A stretch of DNA of 64,000 bases from Methyloversatilis universalis EHg5. Lineage in GTDB: Bacteria > Pseudomonadota > Gammaproteobacteria > Burkholderiales > Rhodocyclaceae. The DNA lies in the NCBI RefSeq assembly GCF_000378945.1, contig NZ_KB900539.1, positions 427,241-491,240 on the forward strand. The letters are read 5' to 3'. This document shows positions 48,055 through 55,314 of this stretch, in pieces (positions within the stretch are counted from its first letter, which is position 1; every line of letters begins with the position of its first letter). The notes beneath the pieces were generated by a model. It was not told where the DNA came from, searched no databases, and saw only the letters and a list, made by a program, of their open reading frames with translations. The translations under genes were made by a program, and so were the position numbers.

Positions 48055-48240
48055 TCAATCCCCTGCGGTGTTCGCCAAGGTCATAGATTCCTTGAACCAA
48101 TGTCTCATTGGCATGAGGTCGCGAACCATCGACGCCGCTGTTGTGCGCACCCCTTGCGGGTGTGCCTGATGTGGCAGGAACGCGGCCGCTCTGAACCCCC
48201 GGTTCAGGATGCCGGCCTAGCGACATACGCGGGGGTCCCC
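48055..48240 (+). ncRNA. ssrS: 6S RNA
   Basis: No protein fits here. The stretch has the 6S pattern: a 5' closing strand CCCCTGCGGTGTTCGC (from 48060) that pairs with the 3' strand GCGACATACGCGGGG (ends about 48235), a large open centre, and internal hairpins around CACCCCTTGCGGGTG and the GAACCCCCGGTTC pair. 6S RNA binds the sigma-70 holoenzyme and mimics an open promoter in stationary phase. Ends are estimated from the pairing and may be off by several bases. Position after zapA supports the call. Confidence 0.85.
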
Positions 48241-48564: not shown

Positions 48565-50091
48565 ATGTCCGGTATTTCCACGCTTGCCGAGCTGTTTTCC
48601 AACGGTGCCGATTCGGCAGTGGCGCTGTCTGCGCCCGCGCGCACCGATCTGAGCTTCGGCAACCTGCGCGCACTGATGTCGCGCACCGTTGCACGACTGA
48701 ATGAACTGGGCATCGGTCGCAACGACCGCGTCGCCATCGTCCTGCCGAATGGCCCGGACATGGCCAGCTCCTTCATCAGCATCGCCTCCGGTGCCACTGC
48801 TGCGCCGCTGAACCCGGGCTATCGCGCCGAGGAATTCGAGTTCTACCTGTCCGACCTGAACGCCAAGGCCCTGGTGGTCGAACGCGGCAGCGTGTCGCCG
48901 GCGATCGAAGTCGCGCAGAAGCTGGGTGTGCGCGTGCTCGACCTGGTGTCGAACGAAGCCGCCGGCGACTTCTCGCTCGAACCGCGTGACGCGGCCACTG
49001 TCGCTCCGGCCGCCAACGGCGGTTCGGCCCAGGCTGACGACGTCGCGCTGGTGCTGCACACCTCGGGCACGACCTCGCGTCCGAAGATCGTTCCGCTGAC
49101 CCAGCGCAACGTGTCCGCCTCGGCGCAGAACATCCGCGCGACGCTGGCCTTCACCGAAAAAGACCGCGGCCTGAACATCATGCCGCTGTTCCATATTCAC
49201 GGCCTGATCGCCGGCATCATGGCGCCGCTGTCCGCCGGTGCTTCGGTGTTCTGCACGCCGGGCTTCGACGCGCTGAAGTTCTTCTCGCTGATGGATGAAG
49301 CGCACCCGACCTGGTACACCGCGGTGCCGACCATGCACCAGGCCATCCTGTCGCGCGCCTCGCGCAACAAGGAAATCATCGAGCGCAATCCGCTGCGCTT
49401 CATGCGTTCGTCGTCGTCGTCGATTCCGCCGCAGGTGATCCGCGAACTGGAAGAAACCTTCGGCGCACCGCTGATCGAAGCCTACGGCATGACCGAAGCG
49501 TCGCACCAGATGGCGTCCAACCCGCTGCCGCCGCGCGCCCGCAAGCCGGGCGCGGTCGGTCTGGCCGCCGGCCCTGAAGTCGAGATCATGGACGACGACG
49601 GCAACATCCTGCCGGCCGGCGAAATCGGCGAAATCGTCATCCGCGGCGCCAACGTGACGCCGGGCTACGAGAACAACGAAAAGGCCAACAAGGAAGGCTT
49701 CACGAACGGCTGGTTCCGCACCGGCGACCAGGGCAGCAAGGACGCCGAAGGCTATCTGTCGCTGACCGGCCGCCTGAAGGAAATCATCAACCGCGGTGGC
49801 GAGAAGATCTCTCCGCGCGAAGTCGATGAAGTCCTGATGGACCACCCCGCCGTGGCGCAGGTCGTGACCTTCGGCATTCCCCACCCCAAGCTGGGCGAGG
49901 AAGTCGGCGCGGTCGTCGTGCTGCGTGAAGGTCAGCAGGCCACCGACAAGGAAATCACCGCTTTCGCCGCGACCCGGCTGGCCGATTTCAAGGTGCCGCG
50001 CAAGATTCTGTTCATGGACGAAATCCCGAAGGGTGCGACCGGCAAGCTGCAGCGCATCGGTCTCGCCCAGAAACTGGGCCTGGGTGGCTGA
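48565..50091 (+). CDS. Acyl-CoA ligase, probable oxalate--CoA ligase
   Basis: 508 residues of the AMP-forming ANL family. ATG at 48565 with GCGGAG upstream; the longer reading from 48382 is not supported. Adenylate-binding TSGTT (166-170), then LFHIHGLIAGIMAPL, TWYTAVPTMHQAIL and EAYGMTEASHQMASNPLP (about 308-325), which match the oxalate-CoA ligase AAE3/Pcs60 branch closely. The hinge is GRLKEIINRGGEKISPREVD, and the C-terminal catalytic Lys is in PKGATGKLQRI. The oxalate assignment comes from this likeness and from the neighbouring transporter and PanE-like genes. Malonate or another short dicarboxylate remains possible. Confidence 0.82.
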   Translation: MSGISTLAELFSNGADSAVALSAPARTDLSFGNLRALMSRTVARLNELGIGRNDRVAIVLPNGPDMASSFISIASGATAAPLNPGYRAEEFEFYLSDLNAKALVVERGSVSPAIEVAQKLGVRVLDLVSNEAAGDFSLEPRDAATVAPAANGGSAQADDVALVLHTSGTTSRPKIVPLTQRNVSASAQNIRATLAFTEKDRGLNIMPLFHIHGLIAGIMAPLSAGASVFCTPGFDALKFFSLMDEAHPTWYTAVPTMHQAILSRASRNKEIIERNPLRFMRSSSSSIPPQVIRELEETFGAPLIEAYGMTEASHQMASNPLPPRARKPGAVGLAAGPEVEIMDDDGNILPAGEIGEIVIRGANVTPGYENNEKANKEGFTNGWFRTGDQGSKDAEGYLSLTGRLKEIINRGGEKISPREVDEVLMDHPAVAQVVTFGIPHPKLGEEVGAVVVLREGQQATDKEITAFAATRLADFKVPRKILFMDEIPKGATGKLQRIGLAQKLGLGG

Positions 50092-50145
50092 CAGGCACTC
50101 TCCCTTCCGCGCAGTACCGTTTTTCACAAAAAAGGAGACATGCAC

Positions 50146-51150
50146 ATGACCAAATTCGGGAAGTGGGCCGGCCGTGCCCTCGTAACCGCCATTGCCACCA
50201 TCGGTCTGACCGGCGTCGCACAGGCGTGGGAGCCGACCAAGCCGGTCGAGTTCGTGGTGCCGGCGGGTACCGGTGGCGGTGCCGACCAGATGGCCCGCTT
50301 CATCCAGGGCATCGTGGCCAAGAACAAGCTGATGGCCCAGCCGCTGGTGGTCGTGAACAAGTCCGGCGGTGCCGGCGCGGAAGGTTTTCTGGAAGTGAAG
50401 GGCGCCAAGGGCGACCCGCACAAGATCATCATCACCCTGTCGAACCTGTTCACCACGCCGCTGGCGACCGGTGTTCCGTTCAACTGGCGTGACCTCACCC
50501 CGGGTGCGATGCTGGCGCTCGACCAGTTCGTGCTCTGGGTGAATGCCGACGCGCCGTACAAGACCGCCAAGGACTACGTCGAAGCGGTCAAGTCCAAGCC
50601 GGCCAACACCTTCAAGATGGCCGGTACCGGCTCGAAGCAGGAAGACCAGATCATCACCGCGATGATCGACAAGGCCACCGGCAAGAAGATGACCTACGTG
50701 CCGTTCAAGGGCGGCGGTGACGTGGCGGTGCAGCTGGTCGGTGCCCACGTCGATTCGACCGTGAACAACCCGATCGAGGCGGAAGCCCACTGGCGTGGCG
50801 GCAAGCTGCGCCCGCTGTGCATCATGGACAGCGAAAAGCTGCCGTACAACGAGAAGGTGACGGCGACCCAGTCGTGGGGCGACATCCCGACCTGCAAGAG
50901 CGCGGGCGTTCCGGTCGAGTACCTGATGCTGCGCGGCATCTTCCTGGCGCCGGGCGTGACCCAGGACCAGGTCGACTTCTACGTGAATCTGTTCAAGAAG
51001 GTGCGCGAGACGCCGGACTGGGCCGAGTTCATGAAGAAGGGTGCGTTCAAGCAGACCTTCATGACCGGCAAGGAATTCAGTGACTGGCTCGGCAAGACCG
51101 AAGCCATGCACTACGGCCTGATGAAGGAAGCGGGTTTCCTGGCCAAGTAA
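50146..51150 (+). CDS. Tripartite tricarboxylate transporter, Bug-type binding protein (TctC)
   Basis: 334 residues from the ATG at 50146, which lies 8 bases after GGAG; an ATG at 50140 is too close to it. Signal peptide about 1-26 (ends AQA). Bug family pattern: PVEFVVPAGTGGGADQMARFIQ (about 33-54), VVVNKSGGAGAEGFLEVKGAKGDPHKIIITLS and TFKMAGTGSKQEDQIIT. Binds a carboxylate in the periplasm and delivers it to TctAB. Sits between the ligase and tctB. Confidence 0.9.
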   Translation: MTKFGKWAGRALVTAIATIGLTGVAQAWEPTKPVEFVVPAGTGGGADQMARFIQGIVAKNKLMAQPLVVVNKSGGAGAEGFLEVKGAKGDPHKIIITLSNLFTTPLATGVPFNWRDLTPGAMLALDQFVLWVNADAPYKTAKDYVEAVKSKPANTFKMAGTGSKQEDQIITAMIDKATGKKMTYVPFKGGGDVAVQLVGAHVDSTVNNPIEAEAHWRGGKLRPLCIMDSEKLPYNEKVTATQSWGDIPTCKSAGVPVEYLMLRGIFLAPGVTQDQVDFYVNLFKKVRETPDWAEFMKKGAFKQTFMTGKEFSDWLGKTEAMHYGLMKEAGFLAK

Positions 51151-51171
51151 TCCCGGCTGCAGTGGCAATGC

Positions 51172-51198
51172 ATACGGGCGGGTCTTCCCCGCCCGTAT
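51172..51198 (+). terminator. Stem-loop between tctC and tctB
   Basis: Perfect 11-bp stem ATACGGGCGGG / CCCGCCCGTAT (51172-51182, 51188-51198) with a 5-base loop followed by TCGTTTCG. It is probably a partial terminator or mRNA 3'-end stabiliser that lets tctC be expressed above the permease genes. Confidence 0.6.
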
Positions 51199-51254
51199 TC
51201 GTTTCGATGCGCCGCAAAGATGTTCACTTCCTGTTTTTTTGATTCTGGAGATTC

Positions 51255-51767
51255 ATGATGGAGCGATCCGAGGACGCCGCCGAAGCCGGCATGTCCAACC
51301 GCTGGCCGGAAATCCTGGTCGCGCTCTTCCTGTTCGCCATCGGCGTCATCGTCGTGTCCGACAGCATCCGTGTCGGTACCGGCTGGGAAGAGGGTGAAGG
51401 TCCGCGCGCCGGCTATTTCCCGTTCTACATCGGCAGCATCCTGCTGATTTCGAGCGGCTGGATCCTGATCGGTGCGCTGGCCAGGATACGCAAGCCGCAA
51501 CCTCAGTTCGCCACCTGGGAAGAGCTGCGGTCGGTCATGCAGATGCTGGTGCCGCTGTCCATCTACATCGTGGCAGTGGTCTTTCTGGGCCTGTATGTGT
51601 CCTCCTTCGTGCTGATCGCCTACTTCATGAAGGTGCACGGCAAGTTCGGTGTCATCGGCACCGTGCTGACTTCGGTCGGTGTGCCGCTGGCCGCCTTCAT
51701 GCTGTTCGAGCGCTGGTTCCTCGTGCCGCTGCCCAAGGGGCCGCTCGAGCTGATGCTCGGCCTCTGA
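51255..51767 (+). CDS. Tripartite tricarboxylate transporter small membrane subunit (TctB)
   Basis: 170 residues with four predicted membrane segments (EILVALFLFAIGVIVV, FYIGSILLISSGWILIGAL, SIYIVAVVFLGLYVSSFVLI and a C-terminal LTSVGVPLAAFMLFERW). These match the TctB family in length and pattern. An adjacent ATG at 51258 is an alternative. It starts after the stem-loop and is 30 bases before tctA, with CTGGAG before the start. Confidence 0.88.
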   Translation: MMERSEDAAEAGMSNRWPEILVALFLFAIGVIVVSDSIRVGTGWEEGEGPRAGYFPFYIGSILLISSGWILIGALARIRKPQPQFATWEELRSVMQMLVPLSIYIVAVVFLGLYVSSFVLIAYFMKVHGKFGVIGTVLTSVGVPLAAFMLFERWFLVPLPKGPLELMLGL

Positions 51768-51797
51768 TCGTCAGAACAACCCACATCCGAGATCGAG

Positions 51798-53294
51798 ATG
51801 GAAGAACTCAACAACCTCATGCACGGGTTCAGCGTCGCGCTGACCCTGCCCAACCTCGGCTTCATGGTGCTCGGCATCACGCTGGGCATCCTGATCGGCG
51901 TGCTGCCGGGCCTGGGCGGTGCCAACGGCATCGCCATCCTGCTGCCGCTCACGTTCTCGATGGACCAGACGTCCGCCATCATCATGCTGTCCTGCATCTA
52001 CTGGGGCGCGCTGTTCGGCGGGGCGATCACCTCCATCCTGTTCAACATTCCGGGTGAACCCTGGTCGGTGGCCACCACCTTCGACGGCTTCCCGATGGCC
52101 CAGCAGGGCAGGGCCGGCGCGGCGCTGACGGCCGCCTTCACGTCGTCCTTCGTCGGTGCCTTCTTTGCGGTGCTGCTGATCACCTTCCTCGCGCCGCTGG
52201 TGGCGAAGTTCGCGCTGAAATTCGGTGCGGCGGAAATGTTCGCGGTGCAGATGCTCACCTTCTGCTCCTTCGTCGGCATGAGCAAGGAACCTCCGGCCAA
52301 GACGCTGGCGGTGATGGCGCTCGGCTTCGCGATGGCGGCGGTGGGCATGGACACGGTGACCGGCACCTTGCGCATGACCTTCGGCTACCCGGAACTGCTG
52401 AAAGGCTTCGACTTCCTGATCGCGGTGATCGGCCTGTTCGGCATCGGCGAAATCCTGCTCACGATGGAAGAAGGTCTGGCCTTCAAGGGCAAGAGCGCAA
52501 AAATCCAGCTCAACGTCGTGCTGCAGACCTGGAAGGAACTGCTGCGCTACTGGCGGACTTCGCTGCGCTCGGTGCTGGTCGGCTGCTGGATGGGCGTCAC
52601 CCCGGGCGGTGCGACGCCGGCGTCCTTCATGGCCTACGGTCTGGCTCGTCGCGGTGCAAAGGACAAGGACACCTTCGGCAAGGGCAATATCGAAGGCGTG
52701 GTGGCACCGGAAACCGCGGCGCACGCCGCCGGCACCTCAGCGCTGCTGCCGATGCTGACGCTGGGCATTCCGGGTTCGCCGACCGCCGCCGTGCTGCTGG
52801 GCGGTCTGCTGATCTGGGGCCTGCAGCCCGGTCCGCTGCTGTTCACCGAGAAACCGGACTTCGTCTGGGGCCTGATTGCCTCGATGTACCTCGGCAACAT
52901 CGTGGGCCTGATCGTGGTGCTGACCACGGTGCCCTGGTGGGCCGCCATCCTGCGCATTCCGTTCTCGGTCATCGGCCCGGTCATCATCGTGATCTGCGCG
53001 ATCGGCGCCTACACGGTGCACAGCTCGATCTTCGACGTGGTGATGATGCTGGTGTTCGGCGTGTTCGGTTACCTGTTCAAGAAGCTGCGCTACCCGCTTG
53101 CACCGCTGGTGCTGGCGCTGGTGCTCGGCGACATGGCCGAATCGAGCTTCCGCCAGTCCATGCTGCTGTCGCAGGGCAGTCTCGACATCTTCTGGGCCAA
53201 CCCGCTGGTGGCCGGTCTGATGCTGCTGTCCTTCACCATGCTGCTGTGGCCCATCGTGCCGGCACTGAAGCACTACCTGCGCGGCCGCGGCTGA
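51798..53294 (+). CDS. Tripartite tricarboxylate transporter large membrane subunit (TctA)
   Basis: 498 residues, about 12 transmembrane segments, the main channel of the TTT system. TctA signatures: GVLPGLGGANGIAILLPLTF (about 36-55), SCIYWGALFGGAITSILFNIPGEPWSVATTFDG (about 67-100) and GVVAPETAAHAAGTSALLPMLTLGIPGSPTAAVLLGGLLIWG. Uses the membrane ion gradient together with TctB and TctC. Its substrate is probably oxalate here, judged from the ligase and PanE-like neighbours. Confidence 0.93.
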   Translation: MEELNNLMHGFSVALTLPNLGFMVLGITLGILIGVLPGLGGANGIAILLPLTFSMDQTSAIIMLSCIYWGALFGGAITSILFNIPGEPWSVATTFDGFPMAQQGRAGAALTAAFTSSFVGAFFAVLLITFLAPLVAKFALKFGAAEMFAVQMLTFCSFVGMSKEPPAKTLAVMALGFAMAAVGMDTVTGTLRMTFGYPELLKGFDFLIAVIGLFGIGEILLTMEEGLAFKGKSAKIQLNVVLQTWKELLRYWRTSLRSVLVGCWMGVTPGGATPASFMAYGLARRGAKDKDTFGKGNIEGVVAPETAAHAAGTSALLPMLTLGIPGSPTAAVLLGGLLIWGLQPGPLLFTEKPDFVWGLIASMYLGNIVGLIVVLTTVPWWAAILRIPFSVIGPVIIVICAIGAYTVHSSIFDVVMMLVFGVFGYLFKKLRYPLAPLVLALVLGDMAESSFRQSMLLSQGSLDIFWANPLVAGLMLLSFTMLLWPIVPALKHYLRGRG

Positions 53295-53393
53295 TCGGAA
53301 ACAGGGCCGCCCGCCGCACGACGGCCGGGCGGCACAGGCGGCGGGGCGCTCTGACCGGGCGCTCCGCCGCGCTACATCGAAGGAGATGAACGA

Positions 53394-54398
53394 ATGAAGA
53401 TTGCAGTCGTTGGCGCCGGCGCCATCGGTGGCTACCTCGCGGTGAAGCTGTCCCGCGCGGGCAATGACGTGACCTGCATCGCGCGTGGCCCCAATCTGGC
53501 GGCCATCCAGGCCAAGGGCATGTCGCTCATCCTGGAGGACGGCACGGTCGAAGACGCGCCGAACATCCGCGGTGTGCAGAAGATGAGTGATGCCGGCGTG
53601 CAGGACGTCATCCTGCTGACGCTGAAGGCGCATCAGGTGAAGGACGTGGCGGCCGACATGCGCGCGCTGTTCGGCCCGGACACCGTGGTGGTGACCATGC
53701 AGAACGGCATTCCCTGGTGGTATTTCCACAAGCTGGGCGGCGACTACGAAGGCACGCCGGTTACCTCGGTCGATCCGGACGGCATCGTCGCCGCCAACAT
53801 CGAGGTCGAGCGTGTCATCGGCTCGGTGGTCTATCCGGCGTCCGAACTGGTCGAGCCGGGCGTGATCAAGCTGATCGAAGGCAACCGCTTCACGCTGGGC
53901 GAGCTGGACGGTTCGCGTTCGCCGCGCATCGAGGCGCTGTCGCAGGCCATGATCGCCGCCGGCTTCAAGTCGCCGGTGTCGAAGGACATCCGCTCCGAAA
54001 TGTGGGTGAAGCTGTGGGGCAACCTGAGCTTCAACCCGATTTCGGCGCTGACCCACGCGACGCTGGAAGACATCTGCCGCTTTCCGCTGACCCGCGAACT
54101 GGCCGCCAACATGATGCGCGAGGCGCAGGCGGTCGGCGAGAAGCTGGGCGTCGAATTCAAGATCGGTCTGGACAAGCGCATCGCCGGTGCCGAGGCGGTG
54201 GGGGCGCACAAGACTTCGATGCTGCAGGACGTCGAAGCTGGCCGCCCGCTGGAGTTCGAGGCGCTGGTCGGTTCGGTGCGCGAACTGGGCCGCATCACCG
54301 GCATCGCGACGCCCAACATCGACGCCGTCTACGCGCTGGTGTCGCTGCTGGCGCGCTCGCTGGCGGACAAGAAGGGCAAGCTGTCCATCGCCGGCTGA
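53394..54398 (+). CDS. PanE/ApbA-family reductase, possible oxalyl-CoA reductase
   Basis: 334 residues. N-terminal Rossmann motif IAVVGAGAIGGYLAVKLSRAG (first 22 residues) and C-terminal ketopantoate-reductase domain with the catalytic lysine K206 in WVKLWGNLSFNPISALT. The automatic name would be 2-dehydropantoate 2-reductase. However, it is last in an operon with an oxalate-CoA-ligase-like gene and a tripartite transporter. A PanE homologue (PanE2) is reported as the oxalyl-CoA reductase of Methylobacterium extorquens, so reduction of oxalyl-CoA to glyoxylate is a real alternative. AAGGAG precedes the ATG. Confidence 0.85.
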   Translation: MKIAVVGAGAIGGYLAVKLSRAGNDVTCIARGPNLAAIQAKGMSLILEDGTVEDAPNIRGVQKMSDAGVQDVILLTLKAHQVKDVAADMRALFGPDTVVVTMQNGIPWWYFHKLGGDYEGTPVTSVDPDGIVAANIEVERVIGSVVYPASELVEPGVIKLIEGNRFTLGELDGSRSPRIEALSQAMIAAGFKSPVSKDIRSEMWVKLWGNLSFNPISALTHATLEDICRFPLTRELAANMMREAQAVGEKLGVEFKIGLDKRIAGAEAVGAHKTSMLQDVEAGRPLEFEALVGSVRELGRITGIATPNIDAVYALVSLLARSLADKKGKLSIAG

Positions 54399-54421
54399 AC
54401 CTCGCCGACTGTGTGACACAG

Positions 54422-54453
54422 CGGGGCGCCTGCGGGCGCCCCGTTTGTTTTTG
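54422..54453 (+). terminator. Intrinsic terminator after the PanE-like gene
   Basis: CGGGGCGCC / GGCGCCCCG stem (54422-54430, 54435-54443), 4-base loop, then TTTGTTTTTG. It closes the oxalate/TTT unit before the TauE-like gene. Confidence 0.85.
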
Positions 54454-54495: not shown

Positions 54496-55314
54496 ATGTT
54501 CTTCCCAGACCTCGGATTCGTGCTCGCCTGCCTTGCGCTCGGGACGGTGGCGGGCTTTTTCGCCGGCATGCTGGGCATTGGCGGCGGCACGCTGCTGGTG
54601 CCGATACTGGTCATGCTGTTCGAGCAGATCCACGTCACGCCCGACCACATCCTGCATCTGGCGCTCGGCACCTCGATGGCGGCCATCGTGGGGTCGTCCA
54701 TCATCAGCCTGCGCACCCACCACGCGCACGGTGCGGTGGACTGGCCGACGGTGCGCACGATGACGGCAGGCGTGCTGATCGGTACCGTCGCCGGCACCTA
54801 TGTCGCGCGGCTGGTGTCGACCCAGACGCTGTCGCTGTTCTTCGCGGTGTTCGTCGTCTATGTGGCGCTGAACATGCTGATCGGCATCAAGCCCAAGCCT
54901 TCGCGCCAGCTGCCGGGCACCGGCGGGCTGATCGCTGCCGGCGGCGGCATCGGTCTGGTGTCCGCGCTGGTGGCGGTCGGCGGCGGCGCGATGACCGTGC
55001 CTTTCCTGACCTGGTGCAACCGCGACATGCGCAACGCCATCGGCACCTCGGCCGCGCTTGGTCTGCCGATCGCGCTCGGCGGTACCGCCGGCTACATCTG
55101 GAACGGTCTGCACGCCGACAATCTGCCGGCCCAGGCCATCGGCTATGTGCACCTGCCGGCGCTGGTGACCATTGTTGCGGCCAGCCTGCTCACCACGCCG
55201 ATGGGTGCGCGCGCGGCGCACCGGGTGCCGGTGGCCACACTCAAGCGGGTGTTCTCCATCCTGCTGGTCGCGCTGGCGGCGCGCATGCTGTGGAAGCTCT
55301 GGGCGGCGGCGTGA
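54496..55314 (+). CDS. TauE/SafE family sulfite/organic anion exporter
   Basis: 272 residues from the ATG at 54496; the leading TTG-based reading is not favoured. About eight membrane segments, with family motifs GTVAGFFAGMLGIGGGTLLVPIL (about 13-35), LHLALGTSMAAIVGSSIISLRTHH and a second half GLVSALVAVGGGAMTVPFL. This family moves sulfite, sulfoacetate or other small anions. It lies beyond a terminator, so link to the oxalate genes is only positional. Confidence 0.87.
   Translation: MFFPDLGFVLACLALGTVAGFFAGMLGIGGGTLLVPILVMLFEQIHVTPDHILHLALGTSMAAIVGSSIISLRTHHAHGAVDWPTVRTMTAGVLIGTVAGTYVARLVSTQTLSLFFAVFVVYVALNMLIGIKPKPSRQLPGTGGLIAAGGGIGLVSALVAVGGGAMTVPFLTWCNRDMRNAIGTSAALGLPIALGGTAGYIWNGLHADNLPAQAIGYVHLPALVTIVAASLLTTPMGARAAHRVPVATLKRVFSILLVALAARMLWKLWAAA

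Follow-up and report, generated by a model that had tools for sequence, protein, structure and literature searches.

A predicted oxalate assimilation operon of the ligase–reductase type in Methyloversatilis universalis EHg5

Gene content and proposed pathway

The window analysed here, a 64,000-nucleotide stretch of DNA from Methyloversatilis universalis EHg5 (contig NZ_KB900539.1, positions 427,241 to 491,240), contains a five-gene operon at 48565 to 54398 that is very probably a unit for oxalate assimilation of the ligase–reductase type. All five genes lie on the + strand, run intact from ATG through to the stop codon in unbroken reading frames and are separated by spacers of 48, 104, 30 and 99 bp. 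The first (48565..50091; 508 aa; PF00501 and PF13193) encodes a stand-alone member of the ANL superfamily that is most likely an oxalate-CoA ligase of the AAE3/Pcs60 type. It is followed by the complete set of components of a tripartite tricarboxylate transporter (TTT), comprising TctC, with oxalate as its predicted ligand (50140..51150; 336 aa; PF03401, 90.5 bits), the small membrane subunit TctB (51255..51767; 170 aa; PF07331, 64.7 bits) and the large membrane subunit TctA (51798..53294; 498 aa; PF01970, 503.2 bits). The last gene (53394..54398; 334 aa) carries the family name 2-dehydropantoate 2-reductase, and we infer that its product is an oxalyl-CoA reductase of the PanE2 type. The Pfam families AMP-binding, AMP-binding_C, TctC, TctB, TctA, ApbA and ApbA_C all score above the gathering threshold in the operon proteins. 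A strong intrinsic terminator follows the reductase gene (54420..54445, + strand), with a stem of 11 pairs and a T-rich tail; the folded stretch has a z-score of −4.0, and 0 of 200 shuffles folded equally well. Coordinates, frames and z-score therefore agree with an earlier sequence-only reading of this DNA, which had described five same-strand genes with short gaps and a terminator after the last, and the oxalate-CoA ligase motifs that it quoted are found in the ligase.

The arrangement is not a chance one, because the order ligase-TctC-TctB-TctA-reductase, with zapA upstream, is retained in all four of the other ligase-bearing genomes among 101 sampled from the family, and the same gene order recurs in six further loci.

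In the pathway that we propose, TctC would capture periplasmic oxalate, and TctA and TctB would import it, driven by an ion gradient. The ligase would then convert oxalate, ATP and CoA to oxalyl-CoA, which the PanE2-type reductase would reduce to glyoxylate and CoA, probably with NADPH, and the glyoxylate would enter the serine cycle via transamination. Every substrate, cofactor, energy coupling and transport direction in this scheme is a prediction from sequence; the observations beneath it are gene content, conservation, phylogeny, genomic association, the lack of oxalyl-CoA decarboxylase (Oxc), formyl-CoA transferase (Frc) or glyoxylate carboligase (Gcl) over cut-off in the genome, and the presence of serine-cycle-like genes. 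Frc depends on formyl-CoA. The ligase step would need only ATP and CoA, unlike Frc with its formyl-CoA from Oxc, and because the ligase would fill the role that Frc has in Oxc-Frc organisms, a decarboxylase would not be needed.

Oxalate assimilation through PanE2 was reportedly described by Schneider in 2012 in Methylobacterium extorquens AM1, which activates oxalate by formyl-CoA transferase. The two systems are alike in that a PanE-family enzyme would reduce oxalyl-CoA to glyoxylate for the serine cycle, whereas the window operon adds an ATP-dependent ligase and a TTT in a genome with no Frc or Oxc over cut-off. The accessible portions of the literature on M. extorquens PanE2 describe its use for converting oxalyl-CoA to glyoxylate (PMC8411744) and an assay of the purified enzyme with glyoxylate (PMC9485241), and include further work on the protein (PMC10127448, PMC12686821). 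What is new is that known ligase and reductase chemistry is combined in one bacterial operon, together with a TTT member that has an oxalate assignment. By title and abstract, none of the open-access papers listed for oxalate with TTT or uptake, or for the ligase with the reductase, describes this operon.

We consider it likely that the operon represents a widespread and so far unnamed module, in which the ligase takes the place of Frc/Oxc and passes its product to an oxalyl-CoA reductase labelled as a pantothenate enzyme, which includes the first oxalate-specific TTT, and whose transporter and reductase are interchangeable between ligase and Frc/Oxc systems. If this is correct, it would supply a substrate for one clade within an over-expanded family of transporters, correct the function given to a reductase clade with at least 583 relatives by sequence-pattern scan, and define a compact, directly testable route from oxalate to glyoxylate. 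As far as its accessible text goes, one survey of oxalotrophy is based on counts of genes for OxlT, Frc, Oxc and oxalate decarboxylase (PMC10192776); a bacterium such as the present one would escape a survey limited to these four. A newer survey lists oxalyl-CoA reductase, with neither PanE nor any ligase named in the accessible portion (PMC12927642).

Genomic neighbourhoods of the reductase and the transporter

We examined the genes around relatives of the reductase, which has matches at E <= 1e-50 in 69 of 200 genomes of the same order, the window's included. From this order sample we took 41 of the 44 places that lie outside the window's genome and have >=48% identity (G081, G144 and G030 were left out; G and L numbers are our labels for genomes and loci), and we combined them with 80 named loci taken from one genome-contig pattern scan that listed the 583 or more relatives. 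Neighbours were counted within 7 kb of the reductase in the resulting 121 clade loci, which are not all independent since L047 and L125 encode an identical reductase protein, and were labelled by phmmer scores against reference proteins at thresholds of our choosing. Because the ranking of the 80 named loci was by likeness to a Methylobacterium reductase that is itself ligase-linked, the share of ligase genes among them is a biased estimate; the order sample suffers less from this.

The ligase lies near the reductase in 42 of the 121 loci (11/41 in the order sample, 31/80 named), and Frc, Oxc or a related thiamine pyrophosphate (TPP) enzyme in 29 (8/41 and 21/80). At least one of ligase, Frc, Oxc, TPP enzyme or OxlT is present in 72 (19/41 and 53/80), and Frc, Oxc or OxlT in 41 when ligase and TPP enzyme are disregarded. 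Some of these neighbours and of the reference proteins pass curated cut-offs: those for oxalate_frc at L055 and L072, for oxalate_oxc at L071 and for the oxalate/formate antiporter at L055. As a control we fetched 15 of the 47 places below 48% identity, and found no oxalate gene near the PanE-like protein in any of the 14 loci counted; the fifteenth, L097, scored below our threshold and was excluded, and L090 has an AMP-binding neighbour at 226 bits, below our threshold for the ligase. Conversely, the ligase occurs at E <= 1e-130 in 15 of the 200 genomes, and in 11 of the 12 that have it at >=730 bits besides the window's own, a clade reductase lies in the same fetched locus.

The ligase was never found together with Frc, Oxc or the TPP enzyme in one locus (0/121), and we therefore read ligase and Frc/Oxc as alternatives; apparently they are two ways to oxalyl-CoA. 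In this respect the window operon differs from Oxc-Frc-OxlT oxalotrophy, although its reductase and transporter clades are common to many genomes of that kind. The ligase–reductase pair is itself seen with TctCBA, with OxlT, with no recognised transporter and once, at L104, with an ABC transporter. The last of these loci, on plasmid pSC52_2 of Rhodobacteraceae bacterium SC52, has a FadR-type regulator, the ABC transporter, the ligase and the reductase in succession, and its ligase relative is annotated 'AMP-binding protein'.

Several observations weigh against a general tie of this reductase to oxalate. No recognised oxalate gene lies within 7 kb in 49 of the 121 clade loci. In 20 of these 49 the reductase is no more than 3 kb from a sequence end, and one of the 49, L151, starts with what is left of a ligase, its final 50 residues; other oxalate-gene-free loci adjoin unrelated genes such as lgt or dsbC. 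The M. oxalidis locus L109 has the reductase and no ligase in its 14 kb, and the one exception among the 12 ligase-bearing genomes, G073, has the ligase with a divergent TctCBA adjoining and no reductase match at E <= 1e-50.

Two further kinds of gene recur in these neighbourhoods. In 63 of the 121 clade loci, a fumarylacetoacetate-hydrolase-family gene (for example, L057:6935-7720) is present no more than 7 kb from the reductase, and at L246 it sits between the reductase and TauE; it is absent from the window operon, and the rest of the genome was not searched for it. Near Frc and the reductase at L055 (8583-10304, − strand) and L057 (12085-13866, + strand) is a TPP enzyme that scores far under the cut-off for Oxc and resembles the acetolactate-synthase and 2-hydroxyacyl-CoA-lyase models more closely, and which is possibly an unrecognised oxalyl-CoA or glyoxylate enzyme.

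Relatives of the transporter show a similar picture. TctC has matches at E <= 1e-60 in 45 of the 200 genomes (44 besides the window's), and we inspected the neighbours within 9 kb at 42 of the 44 loci (G090 and G052 were left out). Among the 36 closest loci (>=440 bits), Oxc/Frc is present at 24, the ligase at 5, the reductase at 4 and at least one of them at 30, and none of the six weaker loci has an oxalate gene. The 55 closest rows of a TctC tree form one starred clade with the window TctC inside it, of which 27 are Frc/Oxc-linked, 18 ligase-linked, 4 linked to the reductase only and 6 to none. Ligase-linked TctCs occur at more than one place within this clade, and its starred branches force at least three label changes. 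Since relatives of one binding protein lie both beside Oxc/Frc and beside the ligase, oxalate is the simplest common factor. These relatives beside Oxc-Frc support the earlier proposal that oxalate is taken up by the tripartite transporter, and on comparative grounds the oxalate assignment for this TctCBA is credible.

The transporter could instead be a mere neighbour, importing another di- or tricarboxylate while the ligase and reductase handle oxalate. Such a reading would fit the diverse ligands taken by TTT binding proteins, as given in the accessible portion of a review in which the word oxalate does not occur (PMC5812351), and the way in which the 31 ligase loci among the 80 named ones divide into 12 with TctA, 8 with OxlT and 11 with neither. 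It is also favoured by the distance of TctC from any solved binding protein (<=109 bits), owing to which the ligand assignment rests on context, and by six of the 36 closest loci, which show no oxalate gene. Four of these six (L200, L209, L217 and L218) end at a contig edge where Oxc would be expected, and L218 retains an Oxc-like piece of 272 bits, below our threshold. Nevertheless, we regard this alternative as unlikely, because the same TctC clade lies near Oxc/Frc in 24 of those 36 loci, mostly without the ligase, and because ligase-linked TctCs are scattered among Frc/Oxc-linked ones, the common factor being oxalate.

Similarity to solved TctC proteins was discarded as evidence on the transporter, the distances being too great. 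What TctCBA shares with TphC/TpiBA and AdpC is the three-part make-up and the Pfam families. In the accessible portion of the Cupriavidus metallidurans genome paper, oxalate occurs only within a list of possible TTT ligands (PMC2864759). At L202, a Complex1_51K flavoprotein gene and a formyl transferase gene lie near an Oxc-Frc-linked transporter, a combination that would fit formate metabolism.

Identity of the reductase and the ligase

The reductase passes the NCBIfam model NF005089 (462.9 bits, cut-off 223), which is named 2-dehydropantoate 2-reductase and thus cannot separate a ketopantoate from an oxalyl-CoA function. A tree of 142 proteins was built by a quick method with support from the SH-like approximate likelihood ratio test (SH-aLRT) only. 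There the window reductase belongs to a starred set with Methylobacterium among its 33 rows, and 29 of the rows are ligase-linked. Apart from it (95*), on long branches and with their exact place unsure, stand E. coli PanE and the genome's other PanE-family gene, L083. Methylobacterium relatives in four records are 62-65% identical to the window reductase and belong to the same starred set; each of three named Methylobacterium genomes has one strong homologue (>=453 bits, all others <=54), PanE2 of strain AM1 itself not being among the proteins compared. That the PanE-like protein is probably misnamed, as the sequence-only reading had suggested, is thus supported both by this phylogeny, in which the reductase clusters with Methylobacterium and ligase-linked rows and not with E. 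coli PanE, and by neighbours of its relatives that pass curated oxalate models.

The same protein could be a true or dual ketopantoate reductase whose place beside the ligase is irrelevant to oxalate, as its family name implies. The E. coli PanE residues K72, N98, K176, S244 and E256 are invariant in the aligned rows, and N180 and N184 are retained across the reductase clade; all seven are presumably active-site residues of that enzyme, so the residues do not exclude ketopantoate reduction, and only context and tree position argue against a pantothenate role. We accordingly discarded these residues as a distinguishing test. The other PanE-family gene of the genome, L083, passes the broad model TIGR00745 (203 bits, cut-off 141). 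However, it fails the closest equivalog (361 against 382) and is without the Asn pair matching N180 and N184, and is therefore not a proven ketopantoate reductase; the operon reductase could thus also serve pantothenate synthesis. Against this alternative stand the association of the clade with ligase, Frc, Oxc and OxlT, with none at the more distant PanE-like proteins counted, the tree position well away from E. coli PanE, and the 131 of 200 same-order genomes without a match at E <= 1e-50, which indicate that the reductase gene is not generally needed. Taken together, these make a ketopantoate role improbable, and an oxalyl-CoA reductase remains the identity that we prefer. Five other genomes of the same family in the order sample have no reductase match at E <= 1e-50, and one pattern scan of viral contigs returned no relative of the reductase.

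The ligase is homologous over most of its length to solved enzymes that we take to be the oxalate-CoA ligases of plants and yeast, and its top sequence matches in the PDB are 5ie0 (461 bits), 6qjz (442) and 8aff (388), the next family, FadD13, following at 227. This similarity supports the earlier claim of oxalate activation by the ligase, the preference for oxalate being predicted. The window enzyme differs from the AAE3/Pcs60 proteins of plants and yeast in being bacterial, operon-encoded and partnered with a reductase. No NCBIfam model names it, the best, FadD7, scoring 425.7 bits where 650 are required. Oxalate could also be a side substrate of a unit whose main task is to activate some other small dicarboxylic or 2-oxo acid, such as malonate or oxamate. 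This is marginally less probable still than a ketopantoate role, since the closest relatives with solved structures are oxalate-CoA ligases, and oxalate is indicated separately by the associations of the reductase and of the transporter, even though an AAE3-like adenylation domain also starts a non-ribosomal peptide synthetase (NRPS) in this genome, so that the type may serve more than oxalyl-CoA.

This second AAE3-like domain (L225:7565-9466, − strand) is 55% identical to the window ligase. It carries a phosphopantetheine carrier and is followed by a large NRPS frame (L225:2-7564, − strand), truncated where the fetched sequence stops, with three condensation and two AMP-binding stretches, and the two together occupy about 358001-367465 on C1 of the same genome; as read from its domains, it is an oxalate-ligase-like NRPS starter module. 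G207, of the same genus, has a 54% identical paralogue of the domain, and further AAE3-like paralogues are present in G026 and G102.

Distribution, host metabolism and flanking genes

Within the family, the ligase was found in 5 of 101 sampled genomes: the window's, both other listed members of the genus (91% identical) and two others. The unit is thus a stable feature of the genus that few members of the family share.

We searched the host genome, 4.09 Mb in two contigs, for other routes of oxalate and glyoxylate metabolism. No Oxc over cut-off was found, the sole match to the Oxc model (193.8 bits, cut-off 739.4) passing the acetolactate synthase model, and no Frc, the highest match to its model being 152.6 bits (cut-off 504.2). 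The absence of oxalyl-CoA decarboxylase and formyl-CoA transferase, claimed earlier, therefore holds for the genome as searched. There is likewise no Gcl over cut-off and no match to malate synthase G; malate synthase A was not sought. Three Fae-family genes are over cut-off, and a serine-cycle-like cluster encodes GlyA, malate-CoA ligase beta and formate-tetrahydrofolate ligase, all over cut-off. A phosphoenolpyruvate-carboxylase-like frame was read by eye. Weighing against a complete serine cycle, the cluster's hydroxyacid dehydrogenase, BhcA-like glyoxylate aminotransferase and citE/malyl-CoA-lyase-like gene are under their equivalog cut-offs. Together, the Fae and serine-cycle-like genes probably fit a serine-cycle methylotroph. 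Serine-cycle methylotrophy is known in this family, and glyoxylate would be a natural entry point for such a host. The overall course set out in the sequence-only reading, from oxalate uptake through activation to reduction to glyoxylate, appears right in substance, with separate comparative evidence for each component.

Upstream, the neighbours of the ligase gene are zapA and a 6S RNA gene that lies between the two (48057..48239, + strand; Rfam RF00013, 52 bits). The stretch from the 6S RNA gene to the ligase is poorly conserved across three species of the genus. A promoter scan of the operon region returned one site, within zapA, against 0.8 expected, and sequences resembling ribosome sites, as judged by eye, precede the ligase, TctC and PanE-like starts. 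A weak terminator-like stem-loop between TctC and TctB (51178..51196, + strand) may be due to chance; the terminator scan gave 9 such sites in 8.1 kb against 4.9 expected.

Downstream of the reductase by 97 bp, beyond the terminator, starts a gene for a TauE/SafE-family membrane protein (54496..55314, + strand; PF01925, 185.2 bits). TauE follows the reductase in three of the four other ligase-bearing genomes of the family sample, and the 7-kb neighbourhood of the reductase includes a TauE/SafE gene at 9 of the 80 named and 3 of the 41 order-sample loci. Despite the intervening terminator, this gene probably belongs to the unit as an accessory member. At locus L106 of Azospirillum ramasamyi, oxlT and the reductase gene have a TauE/SafE gene between them.

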